29,672 nt of DNA from a virus: IMG/VR virus record IMGVR_UViG_3300034168_000925, positions 1-29,672 of that record, one strand, 5' to 3'. Shown one piece after another: positions 5,070 through 15,871 of the stretch (its first letter is position 1; each line of letters opens with the position of its first letter). The translations under genes and the position numbers were made by a program. The notes under the pieces are model-generated. The model was not told the DNA's origin. It saw only the letters and a list, made by a program, of their open reading frames with translations, and made no database searches.

Positions 5070-5882
5070 CTAAAATGGAAGTTCTACATAAATTTCTTCA
5101 TCAATTGTTTCTGGTTCTTCAACTGGATAAGTTGCTTCTTCTGTTTCAACAGCAGGATCAAAATTAAATGCATCTGAAAATACTTGATGCATTTTAATAT
5201 GATCATCCATCCAGGTAGAAGGATGCGCATCTTTTAATGCAAGAGAAATATGATTATACAAAACCCACGCGCTTCCTTCATGAGCATCATAATTAAAACT
5301 TGGTTTTTCCATTTCTTTTTTAATCATGTTTAACTGCATAGTAGTTAAAATTTGTTCTTCAAAAAATAGTTTACCAAGAATAGTATACATTAAACTATCA
5401 GAAATTAATATATCTTTTAATTTATGTTTATGTTCTACAAGTGTAGACCAGTATTCTTCTGAATCTTTTATAAATTCAGATATTTTACCAGCAGCAAGTA
5501 AATCTGCAGCACCTTTGTGAACGCGTTTATATGCACCAAATTTAGAATTTGATAACATCATACCGTTCATACATACTTTTACCAATCCTCCAAGCGAGAA
5601 TCTAAATGCATATTGTTTATTATACGAATTCATAAAGTTTGCAGATAATTCAATATCTGGATCACTTTTATAATTCAATTTAAAATTTCCAATTGCTACA
5701 GTACCATCTTGTGTACATCTGTAATCTTCGCCAGTTATAATATACCCTGCTGCAGTTATTTCAGTTCTCACACGATTGACAACATCTTTGTGAGAAATAG
5801 GTGTATAAGTTTTTGTTTTTTCTGGTAATGGTGCACTTAGCATTTTTCCATAGGCAACCATGCCATTTATTGTTCTTTTCAT
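5070..5882 (-). CDS. DUF932-like phage protein
   Basis: The 270-residue protein resembles the DUF932/phage-plasmid-like family. The core SLGGLVKVCMNGMMLSN (residues about 97-113) matches the family's conserved stretch around a Cys-x-Asn-Gly, and it is followed by a His/Lys-rich region (YKRVHKGAADLL) and an amphipathic helical C-terminal half. The last 30 residues are acidic and probably disordered. Proteins of this family occur in many phages and plasmids, often near recombination or replication genes; their biochemical role is not settled. It lies 1 bp after the polymerase stop and is followed by a strong terminator, so it ends the polymerase transcript. Confidence 0.6.
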   Translation of the reverse strand: MKRTINGMVAYGKMLSAPLPEKTKTYTPISHKDVVNRVRTEITAAGYIITGEDYRCTQDGTVAIGNFKLNYKSDPDIELSANFMNSYNKQYAFRFSLGGLVKVCMNGMMLSNSKFGAYKRVHKGAADLLAAGKISEFIKDSEEYWSTLVEHKHKLKDILISDSLMYTILGKLFFEEQILTTMQLNMIKKEMEKPSFNYDAHEGSAWVLYNHISLALKDAHPSTWMDDHIKMHQVFSDAFNFDPAVETEEATYPVEEPETIDEEIYVELPF

Positions 5883-5883
5883 T

Positions 5884-7860
5884 TTAAAAGAGACTTAATT
5901 GTTGATTCATTTTTTCTTGAGGTAATATTGTAGAAGAATTTTCTACTTTTTTTATCTCGTCATATATTTTATCTAAATAATATTTTTCATTTACATCATA
6001 ATCTAACCATTCTTTTTCTTCAAACTTATTAAATATAGTTTGCATATGCTTACCACTTTCAAGTTGAATTTCGCGATGGTCTGGATTACATTTAATTAGT
6101 TTTACACCATTGTTTGAAATATAATATCTGATTAACTTTTGAAGTTTTTTAACTTCGTATACACCATCTTTTACTGCTCTTTGCTCAAAGTACCAATCAC
6201 CTTTTAATTTTGCTCCTGCACAATAATCATAGATTTCTCTATTTTCTTCTAAGAACACTTTAGGATCAATTCCTTTAATAAAATATGCATACAAAGCTTT
6301 AGGTATTATCAAGTGTGATTTATTTTTATGAAGTGCCAATTCTTCATATTCAAAACGACCTTTGCACTTTGTTTTGCCATCAGTATAAACTGCAATGTAA
6401 TTGTTTACATCACCAATAATCATTTTGTCATATTCTACAGTTTCAAGTTGTAAAGATGTCAAATCTTCCCACTCTTTGCAGATTTCATAAAATAATTTTT
6501 CATCTTGTTCATCAACCAAAAATTCCAAACCATCAGTATTTTGCATAAGTGGTTGAGCACTAGGTATTCTAGTGGCAATCATTTCATACAGCATAGATAG
6601 TTGTAATTGACCATTGATAGTAATCCTAAAAGTAAATTCAGGATCGTACAAAAATGAATATTTATTTTTACTTAATCCATAAGTAGAATTTAGTATAATT
6701 TTAAATAGATAATTCAAAGGAGATGTTTTTGGATATTTCTTTCTTTCTTCAAAAAACCATTCATATAATTCACAAAAATCTTTTTTAGGTATATGAGCTG
6801 GAGACCATTCATTTTTAATTGCAAGATTTGGATAAAAAGAGGTAACATCTGCAGAAAGAATTTTCTTACCGTTACCTGCTTTATATATACCAGATCTAAT
6901 ACAACCATGGAGACCACCTAGTCCATAATCTGTAGGAACTCCTTTGTACATCATTCTATACTTAGGACCTTTTGTTTGTGTTTGTTCAATATCAATTGTT
7001 GTGTTTACAATTTGACTTTTAAACCAGTTAAAAACACCTGTAAATTCTGGTGTAGTAAAACTAATCATAGGAAGAAGAATATTTCTGACAACTACGCTAT
7101 CGCGTTCTGTTCGCATTACTCTAATTGCTTTCTTGTCTTTTTGTAATTTTTCAGATAAAAAGTGTAAAAATATCTCTTTACTGATTCTTGGCTCACTAGC
7201 AGAAAGTAAATTCAAATTATATGTTGCACTTAACTCTGCTCTTAAATTGATTTGACTTGCCATTACTCGTTCTCCTTTAGAATTACGAAGAACAAATATT
7301 TGTTTTGTTGACCTAACATCATTTATACAATAACTAATAATAGAATCTAATGATTCATCATTTAAAACTGGCTGTGTATGATGATGTGGCATTTCTTCCA
7401 CACTAAACCAATCCATAGAAAATTGTATCCACTTTAAAGAACATCTTTTTGCCATACCATCCCAATGATTCAACTTAAATATGTCTACACATTGAATAGT
7501 AAGTTTAAATTCTGGATAATCTAGCCATTGACCAGTGTTGGATTTTTTAATTACTTCTCCAGCATATTGAGCAATTGTACCAGAAATATCATTAGATGAT
7601 AAGCGTGACATTTCTTCTCTGTTTTCAAGTATGAATTCAGTTATTTGAGCATCAAATGCTAAATTATTATAACCAAGATGCCAATCTTTATGATCTATGT
7701 TGTCATCTAAAAAAGCAAGAAACTTTTTAAAATCATTTTTGTCTCTATTGATGACAAAAGTATGAGTTTCATCAGAATCATATGCTCTAAATACAGCAAC
7801 AAAACAATTGACAATTGTTTCATAATCCATTACCCAAAATATTCTATTACGCTTTTCCAT
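5884..7860 (-). CDS. Family B DNA polymerase with 3'-5' exonuclease
   Basis: The 658-residue enzyme has the proofreading motifs Exo I (D12-Y-E14), Exo II (YNNLAFD, D70) and Exo III (YCIND, Y177 and D181). The linker motif YGLGGLHG (312-319) and the polymerase motifs follow: A (DVTSFYPNL, D338), B (KIILNSTYG, a perfect K-x3-NSxYG at 387-395) and C (NTDGLEF, 441-447). Motif C has Asn in place of the first Asp of DTD but keeps the second, catalytic Asp (D443). There is no long insert between motifs A and B, so protein-primed TPR domains are absent. The C-terminus is QLSLF, a sliding-clamp-binding motif. It is probably the replicative polymerase, as in crAss-like phages that use PolB. Confidence 0.95.
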   Translation of the reverse strand: MEKRNRIFWVMDYETIVNCFVAVFRAYDSDETHTFVINRDKNDFKKFLAFLDDNIDHKDWHLGYNNLAFDAQITEFILENREEMSRLSSNDISGTIAQYAGEVIKKSNTGQWLDYPEFKLTIQCVDIFKLNHWDGMAKRCSLKWIQFSMDWFSVEEMPHHHTQPVLNDESLDSIISYCINDVRSTKQIFVLRNSKGERVMASQINLRAELSATYNLNLLSASEPRISKEIFLHFLSEKLQKDKKAIRVMRTERDSVVVRNILLPMISFTTPEFTGVFNWFKSQIVNTTIDIEQTQTKGPKYRMMYKGVPTDYGLGGLHGCIRSGIYKAGNGKKILSADVTSFYPNLAIKNEWSPAHIPKKDFCELYEWFFEERKKYPKTSPLNYLFKIILNSTYGLSKNKYSFLYDPEFTFRITINGQLQLSMLYEMIATRIPSAQPLMQNTDGLEFLVDEQDEKLFYEICKEWEDLTSLQLETVEYDKMIIGDVNNYIAVYTDGKTKCKGRFEYEELALHKNKSHLIIPKALYAYFIKGIDPKVFLEENREIYDYCAGAKLKGDWYFEQRAVKDGVYEVKKLQKLIRYYISNNGVKLIKCNPDHREIQLESGKHMQTIFNKFEEKEWLDYDVNEKYYLDKIYDEIKKVENSSTILPQEKMNQQLSLF

Positions 7861-10366: not shown

Positions 10367-11398
10367 TTAGTAAACTAAATCACTATTATCAAAAAATTCT
10401 TTGTTTAACTCTTTATATTTTGCAATTGCTTTATCTAAAACTGGTATTAAAGTATACGCAGCTCTAGTAATACCATGCACTTTTACAATATCACTAAAAT
10501 CTTTTTCAAGTGAAATATAACAGAATGGAAGATTATGTGTATCCAAGTAGTAATTCATACTTGTAATACCTGCAGTGTCACTATCCATATAGGTTACAAC
10601 TGCTTCGTAGTCATTTTTTAATGTGTCAATAAGTTCATAAGAAAGTTTTGTGTTCTCACTATCTGGTGCAATAACATCAACATCTAATCCAGGTATACTT
10701 TTAATTGACATGCAATCTTTCAATGAAGAAGCAATAACTAAAAATCTTTTTCCTTCAAGTTGATCATAACCTTGTACATAATCTAACAATTTTAGAAACT
10801 TTTTGTTACCGTTTTTAGGTTGGTAAATTTTGTACATCTCGTTGTACTTTGTAGCGTACAAATAAACATGCTTTTTTTGTACAACAAACTCTTCTTCAGT
10901 ATTAATATTACCTACTTGCTTAGTCATAATATAACTTCGCAAAGGTATTACATTGTACTGCTCAAGCAATTTACTACTAATATTGAACTGTAACCAAAAA
11001 TCTGCATCATCTTTAGTCCAATCTCTGATAAAATAATCAGAAACTATCCATTTTGTTTCTACAAATTCTTTTTGTTCAACTTTGTTACCAGTTTTCAAAA
11101 ACTTTTGATAATCATCAATAATTTTAAATACTGCAGTTGTATAATCAACATTCCAAATCTTTGCCATCAAATCTGTTGCATTACCAGATTTACCAGTAGA
11201 AAAACATTTATATCTATACTTGCAAAGATCTTTGACATAATATAAATACATAGAAGGATCTCTATCATCTGGATTAAATAAACTTTTCATTCTAAAATTC
11301 TGACCTGTTAATTTTACAGGTAGATTTAAATAGTTTTCTAAAATCCAATCAGAAGGAACATCTTCCACACTTCCAATAAAGTTGTTTAAACTAAACAT
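10367..11398 (-). CDS. DnaG-like TOPRIM primase
   Basis: The 343-residue protein has a primase-like N-terminus (residues 36-95: FNPDDRDPSMYLY, then KCFSTGKSGNATDLMAKIW) that looks like a CHC2 zinc-finger domain which has lost most of its cysteines. The TOPRIM domain follows (219-310) with VIASSLKDCM, APDSENT, the metal-binding VTYMDSDTAG (D272, D274) and EKDFSDIV. The usual TOPRIM glutamate (EGxxD) is replaced by Ser in SSLKD. It would make RNA primers for the phage fork with the DnaB-like helicase and SSB-like protein encoded just upstream. A terminator-like hairpin lies between it and the SSB-like gene. Confidence 0.85.
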   Translation of the reverse strand: MFSLNNFIGSVEDVPSDWILENYLNLPVKLTGQNFRMKSLFNPDDRDPSMYLYYVKDLCKYRYKCFSTGKSGNATDLMAKIWNVDYTTAVFKIIDDYQKFLKTGNKVEQKEFVETKWIVSDYFIRDWTKDDADFWLQFNISSKLLEQYNVIPLRSYIMTKQVGNINTEEEFVVQKKHVYLYATKYNEMYKIYQPKNGNKKFLKLLDYVQGYDQLEGKRFLVIASSLKDCMSIKSIPGLDVDVIAPDSENTKLSYELIDTLKNDYEAVVTYMDSDTAGITSMNYYLDTHNLPFCYISLEKDFSDIVKVHGITRAAYTLIPVLDKAIAKYKELNKEFFDNSDLVY

Positions 11399-11472: not shown

Positions 11473-12210
11473 TTATGGAAGTTGTAAATCACTTACATTA
11501 TCTTCAAAAACAGGTGAACTGTTTGCAGGATTGAAGATGTCTTCAGAAACAGGTGCTGGTGAAAACTCACTCACTGTTTCAGATGCGTCTTCAGAAACTT
11601 TTTTCTCATAAATGTGAACAGCTTCGTTAAACGTAAAGAAATTAGGATTATCTTGAGTCATTGCATACGCATATTTCCCTTCAACTCTTTTTGGTAAATA
11701 TAAAGAATAGTTTGGAAAGTCAGAACCATCTTTAAAATACTTTTGTCCACCAATTGTGAAATACATCCAGAAATCAGGTTTGCAAACAAAACTTTTTACT
11801 GCTGCAACCAAGTCTTCAATTGTAAGACATTCAATTTTAAGCGATTGAAACTTGTCTAAAATACCCATTTGAGTTAAGAAACTACCTAGATAAGTTTGAA
11901 TAGATTCATCTCTTAAGATGTTTTTACCTTTGTAAACCCAGTCTTTGAAACCAAATTGACCACTTCTTACTGAGGCAATTTGACCTTTATAGTTTCCTCT
12001 TGCAGGATTATTTCTATCAACTTGGATACCGTCAAATCCATCACCTATTTCTTCACCTTCTAATACAAATATTAAATTGTATTGGTCCTTGTCATAAGGA
12101 GGTCTTTCTAATTTTAAATCTATAATTCTACACTTGTGTGTACCTGGTAATAAGATTTTTGATACATAATTACCTTCTGCTGGATTGAAATCATTTAAAC
12201 TAAACGCCAT
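11473..12210 (-). CDS. SSB-like replication protein (probable ssDNA-binding)
   Basis: The 245-residue protein has a beta-rich N-terminal two thirds with alternating strands (for example SKILLPGTHKCRIIDLKLE) and a low-complexity acidic tail rich in Ser, Glu and Asp that ends NVSDLQLP. An OB-like core plus an acidic C-terminal tail is the layout of single-stranded DNA-binding proteins. The assignment rests on that layout and on position between a Sak4-like ATPase and the primase; no family signature was identified with certainty. The gene is followed by a terminator, consistent with a product needed in high amounts. Confidence 0.5.
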   Translation of the reverse strand: MAFSLNDFNPAEGNYVSKILLPGTHKCRIIDLKLERPPYDKDQYNLIFVLEGEEIGDGFDGIQVDRNNPARGNYKGQIASVRSGQFGFKDWVYKGKNILRDESIQTYLGSFLTQMGILDKFQSLKIECLTIEDLVAAVKSFVCKPDFWMYFTIGGQKYFKDGSDFPNYSLYLPKRVEGKYAYAMTQDNPNFFTFNEAVHIYEKKVSEDASETVSEFSPAPVSEDIFNPANSSPVFEDNVSDLQLP

Positions 12211-13643: not shown

Positions 13644-13678
13644 AATTTTACATTTTTAATTTTACATTTTTTACATTT
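13644..13678. repeat. 14-bp tandem repeat, two exact copies plus a partial third
   Basis: AATTTTACATTTTT occurs at 13644-13657 and again at 13658-13671, followed by a partial copy (TTACATTT, 13671-13678). It fills the gap between the helicase stop and the start of the 215-aa gene. On the - strand it gives an A-rich leader of the kind that aids translation in Bacteroidota. An iteron-like protein-binding site is another possibility. Confidence 0.8.
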
Positions 13679-14675
13679 AACTTAAACTACCTAGTATTCG
13701 AGTTGTTGGAGTAGGTGCTTCAATAATAGTCATTTTAGCGTATTCTGCTTTATACCATTGAATACCAACTTCACCAAATCTATTTTTTAATATGTGCATT
13801 GCTAATAAAAATTTATCATCAATAACATATTTGTTTGGACCATAAAAACCTAAGTTATATTTTGCTGGTCGATTGAAAGCAATCATCACATCAGCACACT
13901 GGTTCAAAAAGTCGCTTCCATAAACATCAGATTCTGTAGGGTAATGACCTTCGCCTTTACCTGTAGTTTTCTGCCTCTCAGGATCATCAATTTCTCGATT
14001 TAATTGTGTCAATATAATAAATGTAACAGGTAACATATTTTTCATTTCTGTCATCATAATAGCAAGATTTTGTAATGTTGCTTGCTTATTATTCTCACTA
14101 CCAGATTGTTTTACTAAAAGAGTATGGTCTAAAGTAATTACAAATGGTTTTTTCATTGTGTTGTAAAAATTAAATATTGCACTACGCATCTCATTCACTG
14201 TAAGTGCTTTATCAATTATATACTCTTTTCTTGCATGCTGTTTACTTGCATATTCTTTTAACTTATTAAAGTCAGCACTAGTTAATGGTGGCATACCATC
14301 ATCCATTGCAGATTGCAAATATCTAATATTTAATCCACTGGTTGCAGATAATTCACGCAACGCCATGTTTCTTCCTAGCATTTCAAATTGAAAATGCAAT
14401 ACAGCAAAATCCTGTTCAGGATTCAAACGCTGTAATTCTCGTGTTAAAGAGGCAGCAATAAGAGTTTTACCAACTCCTGGTCTTGCAGCAATAACGTATA
14501 ATGATTGCCACTCAATACCATTTAATCCAATTTTATTGAATTGTTTCCATTGAGTTTTTAAAGATTTTATATTTCCACTAGCTCGTGAGTGAATATATTT
14601 TAAACCTTCATTCATAACATCACCATACTGTTTCCATTCTATTTTTTTTGGTTCTTCACCAGATGGTTTAAACAT
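13677..14675 (-). CDS. DnaB-like replicative helicase (RecA-type C-terminal domain)
   Basis: The 332-residue protein matches the DnaB C-terminal ATPase domain. It has Walker A in AARPGVGKT (63-71), the FQFEMLGRNMALRELS segment equivalent to S.EM....ER, Walker B in FVITLDHTLLV, the ILTQLNRE motif and a C-terminal LKNRFGEVG segment that would hold the arginine finger and beta-hairpin. The N-terminal DnaB domain is missing or reduced to about 40 residues, as in many phage helicases. It would unwind the fork ahead of the family B polymerase. A predicted Bacteroidota promoter lies 23 bp upstream, so it may start a replication transcript. Confidence 0.9.
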   Translation of the reverse strand: MFKPSGEEPKKIEWKQYGDVMNEGLKYIHSRASGNIKSLKTQWKQFNKIGLNGIEWQSLYVIAARPGVGKTLIAASLTRELQRLNPEQDFAVLHFQFEMLGRNMALRELSATSGLNIRYLQSAMDDGMPPLTSADFNKLKEYASKQHARKEYIIDKALTVNEMRSAIFNFYNTMKKPFVITLDHTLLVKQSGSENNKQATLQNLAIMMTEMKNMLPVTFIILTQLNREIDDPERQKTTGKGEGHYPTESDVYGSDFLNQCADVMIAFNRPAKYNLGFYGPNKYVIDDKFLLAMHILKNRFGEVGIQWYKAEYAKMTIIEAPTPTTRILGSLS

Positions 14676-15514: not shown

Positions 15515-15871
15515 ATGGCAAAGAAAACAAAAGCAGTAGAAGAAGTTACATCTTCTGAAATTAAATTACCAGACAACATGCAGATAATTAATCCTAATGC
15601 AGTTGTTAATGTAAGGATTAGTGCAAGTTTTTTTAATCGACTTGGTATTATTTTTCAAAGAATGATTGAAGATAAAACACAAGAAGAATTAGCAAATGCG
15701 TATCAACAAATAGAAAAAAAGAATATTTCTGAAATGTGGATACAAGATTTAGAAACCATGGTTATTTTAATTAACGAGTTTCAAAAAAATGCAAAAGCAG
15801 AAAACCAATTGAAAACCATAACAAAAGAAGAATATTCTAAAATGATGGCTGAAAGTCTTGGTGTAAACTAA
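15515..15871 (+). CDS. Lone + strand gene inside the - strand block, unknown function
   Basis: A 118-residue soluble protein, with a charged N-terminus (MAKKTKAVEEVTSS), a conserved-looking core (INPNAVVNVRISASFFNRLG) and a long helical, Glu/Lys/Gln-rich C-terminal half. It is predicted to be a helical bundle. No family is recognised. Its orientation is opposite to every other gene between 3423 and the window's right edge. It has its own near-consensus promoter 28 bp upstream and ends by a 4-bp convergent overlap (CTAA) with the 125-aa gene, so both frames use the same bases for their stops. Independent early or constitutive expression is the natural reading. Confidence 0.8.
   Translation: MAKKTKAVEEVTSSEIKLPDNMQIINPNAVVNVRISASFFNRLGIIFQRMIEDKTQEELANAYQQIEKKNISEMWIQDLETMVILINEFQKNAKAENQLKTITKEEYSKMMAESLGVN

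Follow-up and report, generated by a model that had tools for sequence, protein, structure and literature searches.

The DNA polymerase encoded by the viral fragment studied here ends in QLSLF, a peptide of the type through which bacteria tether polymerases to the ring-shaped sliding clamp, raising the question of what such a tail does on the polymerase of a phage. The clamp motif and its mode of action are textbook knowledge, and crAss-like phages, among which relatives of this polymerase are found, rank with the most abundant viruses in the human gut and in many waters; no description of how a crAss-like replicase stays on DNA was found in the literature searched. The analysed record is a 29.7 kb IMG/VR fragment, and the whole of it is referred to below as the window. 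Four of its genes are needed for what follows.

5884..7860, minus strand: family B DNA polymerase with a 3'-5' exonuclease domain, 658 aa (PHROG 1252, AlphaFold2, PDB matches)
5070..5882, minus strand: DUF932 protein, separate from the polymerase (PF06067, E 6.8e-7)
10367..11398, minus strand: DnaG-type primase of the same replication module (PF01807, E 3.1e-6; PHROG 12622)
13677..14675, minus strand: DnaB-like replicative helicase of the same module (PF03796, E 4e-27; PHROG 19)

The window polymerase has no Pfam or NCBIfam match, phmmer finds no match to it among PDB sequences, and megablast of the window against phage records gives no match. A profile search places it with PHROG 1252, 'DNA polymerase', over nearly its full length (E 4.7e-131), and an AlphaFold2 model built from 52 homologues reaches a mean pLDDT of 89. 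The top PDB matches of this model are family B enzymes, with the archaeal KOD/Tgo polymerases at Z 16.3 (VIA-align) and E. coli Pol II structures at Z about 15, while Foldseek matches the model to family B polymerases with E 1.9e-13, the structural match spanning residues 3-650. D12/E14 (ExoI), D338 (motif A, DVTSFYP) and D443 (motif C) are invariant in 52 sequences. Motif C of the window polymerase reads NTDG, the first Asp being replaced by N, and a divergent motif C is reported for the crAss-like PolB group (PMC7544198). Judged by its predicted fold and its catalytic residues, the window polymerase is a family B enzyme. It is the sole DNA polymerase recognised in the replication module, which in the window also comprises the DnaB-like helicase, a Sak4-like ATPase, the primase, a PD-(D/E)XK nuclease and a UDG.

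The DUF932 gene lies directly downstream of the polymerase, both in the window and in environmental relatives, and its product has an acidic C-terminal tail ending in ELPF (DDLPF, DDDSAFF, TPDFF and GGEFFL in relatives). Residues 244-267 are modelled as a disordered tail with pLDDT below 50, and with its hydrophobic or aromatic end this tail is reminiscent of the SSB C-terminal tip; the model of the DUF932 protein has no fold match in the PDB. A 245-aa protein (11473-12210, minus strand), for which no Pfam, NCBIfam or PHROG match was obtained, sits at a position where SSB might be expected, and its C-terminus is DLQLP, unchanged in close relatives and replaced by DLDLPF or ELDLPFE in others. 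Elsewhere in the long block of minus-strand genes, a plus-strand ORF of 118 aa (15515-15871) lies between the UDG gene and a conserved small gene.

The end of the polymerase gene can be divided into three parts.

5884..5886, minus strand: polymerase stop codon, TAA (sequence)
5887..5901, minus strand: putative C-terminal clamp-binding motif QLSLF, residues 654-658 (translation, conservation, pLDDT)
5902..5943, minus strand: variable linker, residues 640-653, joining the last long helix (625-639) to the motif (alignment, model)

Translation of the ORF at 5884-7860 on the minus strand gives a C-terminus of ...KMNQQLSLF followed by the stop, confirming the statement in a preliminary description of this DNA that QLSLF forms the last five residues. 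The interval assigned there to the peptide, 5884-5898, is one codon off: it spans the stop codon and LSLF and misses the Q codon, the correct interval being 5887-5901. The agreement with the QL(S/D)LF consensus that had been noted stands, with Q at position 1, hydrophobic residues at positions 2 and 4 and an aromatic residue at position 5. The exposed C-terminus proposed at the same time is likewise supported, as AlphaFold2 predicts QLSLF to be free and disordered, and the only stretch of the polymerase model with pLDDT below 50 is residues 654-658, which is exactly the motif. These values suggest that the tail hangs free, and the motif is predicted to sit on an accessible, flexible segment. 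The chance of finding Q[LIM]x[LFIM]F at a C-terminus is about 6e-5 from composition, and of the 342 ORFs called in three large relatives, none but the polymerases has the motif at its end; this rarity, together with conservation in homologues, rules out a chance match.

Conservation was assessed on homologues retrieved with peptide patterns that lay in the protein body and left out the motif, and the counts were limited to complete C-termini. The resulting set of 148 non-identical environmental proteins, several of which are near copies, reaches down to about 47% identity. Conservation of the C-terminal pentapeptide had been suggested as a check, and the motif is kept in all 148 homologues, including those that switch to a hexapeptide: each has a terminal Q-[L/I]-x-[L/F/M/I]. 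The pentapeptide Q[LIM]x[LFIM]F ends 122 of them and a hexapeptide form (QLKLEL, QLTLDL) ends 20, with one extra residue in three proteins and slight departures in another three (QLTFE twice, QLKLL). By individual tail there are 72 QLSLF, 14 QLKLF, 13 QLTLF, 9 QLELF, 14 QLKLEL and 3 QLTLDL, besides others. In the corresponding alignment of 149 rows, which counts the window protein twice, Q is invariant, L is present in 146 rows, position 4 is L/F/M/I in all, F occurs in 126 and the hexapeptide in 20.

The residues leading up to the motif behave quite differently. For pairs of proteins at 50-60% core identity, Q is identical in 100%, L in 95% and position 4 in 86%, whereas identity over the ten residues preceding the motif is 7%, close to chance level. 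Linker identity between distant relatives falls as low as 5-7%, and anywhere from 16 to 28 aa separate the YYL helix, the last helix, from the motif Q in the homologues. The 72 proteins ending in QLSLF use 21 different 15-mers to encode it, which indicates that selection acts on the peptide.

Beyond this environmental set, the polymerases of the crAss-like Suoliviridae are about 27% identical to the window polymerase, and 54 of 56 distinct Suoliviridae tails carry the motif at the C-terminus or within 7 residues of it. All four sampled subfamilies have it, in the forms QLELF, QLSLF, QLTIF, QLNLF, QLSLW and QMSLW; departing tails read KELSLF, QPLELF and QTNSF. The polymerases of p-crAssphage and crAss002 (Intestiviridae) are without the tail motif, and polymerases of proteobacterial phages (about 30-35% identity) stop some 20 residues earlier and also lack it. 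The tail motif is clade-specific. In a quick polymerase tree from which the tail was left out, strong support goes both to the environmental clade and to the Suoliviridae, and the tail label needs two changes; a single origin, in the form of one joint clade of the tail-bearing rows, is rejected (p-AU 0.008, with long branches in play). Tentatively, these two results suggest two gains of the tail, or else its loss in the intervening branch.

An internal Q[LIV]D[LI][FY]K near residues 113-161, in the exonuclease domain of distant relatives, was considered as a possible internal clamp motif and rejected, being a fold element and not a free motif; it aligns with VDIFKL of the window polymerase. 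Among the annotated phages, Cellulophaga phage phi14:2 (L085, 1495-3940) and Flavobacterium phage Fpv2 (L273, 2483-5550) have the polymerase gene in two annotated pieces with an ORF between them, suggesting an intron, an intein or an insertion.

The earlier observation that no clamp is visible in the window is borne out, and because the record is only a fragment, large relatives were searched in its place. None of the profiles PF00712 and PF02768 (both DnaN), PF02767, PF00705 and PF13177 had a match in the relatives searched, and control genomes gave signal for DnaN, PCNA and loader profiles. The suggested look outside the window for a clamp detected none in the large relatives with DnaN, PCNA and DnaX-type loader profiles: DnaN domain 3 has no match in 18 records of relatives and DnaN domain 1 none in 21, all of 36-126 kb, a delta'/DnaX-type clamp loader and PCNA have no match in the 12 relatives searched for them, and DnaN domains have none in nine Suoliviridae genomes. 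Two of the relatives searched, of 123 and 126 kb, carry direct repeats at their termini (127 and 237 bases), so these genomes look complete. The T4 clamp model PF02916 gave no signal in any control genome and is uninformative on a T4-type clamp.

Profile searches can also miss divergent phage clamps, as illustrated by the 'processivity factor' encoded beside PolB in Queuovirinae (L276, 924-1877; L277, 1304-2257; 52% identical to each other). This factor lies below the Pfam cut-off and one of the two examples was missed, only one of them giving a weak match to DnaN domain 2 (E 1.7e-4, short of the cut-off). Used as a protein query, the Queuovirinae DnaN-like factor found a known homologue strongly and none in 16 relatives.

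Several lines of comparison bear on the phages themselves and their host. The terminase of a large relative is ~25% identical to terminases of crAss-like, Bacteroides, Flavobacterium and Cellulophaga phages, and terminase, portal, polymerase, helicase, RecA-like ATPase and primase are common to the large relatives and the Suoliviridae at low identity. From their gene content, the terminally repeated relatives of 123-126 kb probably represent a little-described aquatic crAss-like lineage; they (L101-L107 of G012 and L108-L114 of G013) contain ORFs of 3784 and 4333 aa. A Bacteroidota host is plausible given the crAss-like gene relatives. Among bacterial genomes, only two MAG contigs (Sphingomonadaceae and Spirochaetia) carry a relative; they were set aside as host evidence, since they are likely binned phage contigs.

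We consider it highly likely that QLSLF at the C-terminus functions as a bacterial beta-clamp-binding motif on a flexible linker, tethering the replicase to host DnaN, and the proposal to that effect in the preliminary description is supported. The peptide is kept while the linker scrambles and no clamp is detected, and from this pattern phages without a detectable clamp very probably borrow that of the host. The phage polymerase would dock through QLSLF on the host DnaN clamp, which the host clamp loader would load, and the tether would confer processivity on the phage replicase. The QL[S/D]LF consensus and its hexapeptide variants bind one DnaN cleft (PMC3716654). Counting against docking on the host clamp, the polymerases of distant relatives do without the tail.

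An unrecognised processivity factor encoded by the phage, either a divergent clamp or a non-ring protein, could be the partner of the tail in place of the host clamp. A DnaN-like factor is indeed encoded beside the polymerase in some phages whose polymerases are distantly related, and the profile searches overlooked one of the Queuovirinae examples, yet the query with that factor was blank in 16 relatives while strong on its known homologue, the DnaN, PCNA and clamp-loader profiles were blank in the relatives searched, and the phages that have their own DnaN-like factor are without the tail motif; we regard such a partner as distinctly unlikely. It is highly improbable that the peptide is kept for another reason, as a DNA signal (for instance, for the start of the adjacent DUF932 gene), a degron or a folding element. 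Only 1 base separates the polymerase stop from the DUF932 start codon in the window, and in most relatives a start codon lies within 20 bases, but the synonymous diversity of the QLSLF codons and the Suoliviridae, which keep the motif despite a different downstream gene, rule out a DNA-level signal for the next gene. The hexapeptide variants, moreover, preserve the chemistry of a clamp motif and not the DNA, and a folding element is at odds with motif residues that are predicted to be disordered and not packed.

A further possibility accepts that the tail binds host DnaN but assigns it mainly to displacing Pol III and shutting off host replication, with processivity not its purpose. The known motifs compete with one another for a single clamp cleft (PMC3716654), and a QLSLF of consensus strength should compete well; the motif is, however, carried by the replicative polymerase itself and not by a small inhibitor, which makes displacement as the main role unlikely. 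The sequence does not tell displacement and processivity apart, and the two roles could coexist. Tethering of the replicase to host DnaN remains our preferred reading. In its broadest form, the whole crAss-like branch, comprising all sampled gut Suoliviridae and the large aquatic group, would replicate with a PolB dependent on the host clamp; this dependence would have two origins, or else would have disappeared from the proteobacterial-phage branch, and it may also enable the phage to evict host Pol III. We see the chances of this wider proposal as evenly balanced.

A borrowed clamp would account for the failure to find a clamp gene and would be a host-dependency step, and through the conserved tail it offers a directly testable answer to how the replicase stays on DNA. 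If the host clamp is borrowed, changes in the Bacteroidota clamp are predicted to affect crAss-like phages, and the natural variants of the motif provide a ready data set on clamp-motif specificity. No report of the tail in crAss-like polymerases was found in the literature searched, which leaves out the viral replicase survey of Kazlauskas and Venclovas 2011. Within that literature, a fixed motif on the replicative PolB of a large crAss-like group appears undescribed, which is not a claim of priority.

Comparison with known systems places the window polymerase in the same lineage as the crAss-like PolB group of Kazlauskas et al. 2020 (PMC7544198), with the Suoliviridae and, more distantly, the Intestiviridae; the accessible portion of that account mentions no clamp motif for the group. 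T4 gp43 is also a family B phage polymerase, with a processivity that depends on the sliding clamp gp45 (PMC8775771), but T4 encodes its own clamp and loader, whereas none was detected in relatives of the window phage with DnaN, PCNA and DnaX-type profiles. The Queuovirinae PolB, a distant relative of the window polymerase, shows the opposite arrangement, with a DnaN-like factor encoded adjacent to it and the C-terminal motif absent, while the window clade has the motif. Gram-positive PolC ends in the same five residues as the window polymerase, although it belongs to family C and its fold is unrelated. The C-terminal QLSLF of B. subtilis PolC binds DnaN (KD about 3.8 uM) and resisted deletion from PolC in B. 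subtilis cells (PMC12309361), and 98% of PolC proteins keep the consensus (PMC3919608). E. coli Pol II is likewise a family B enzyme with a pentapeptide clamp motif, QLGLF, at its extreme C-terminus, for which the complex of the peptide with beta has been solved (PMC3716654). Unlike the window polymerase, Pol II is a host enzyme and about 120 residues longer (PDB chains up to 781), and the two share about 14% identity in structural alignment. The alternation of pentapeptide and hexapeptide in the phage homologues mirrors that among known clamp motifs, with QLGLF in Pol II, QLNLF in UmuC and QVELEF in Pol III (PMC3716654).
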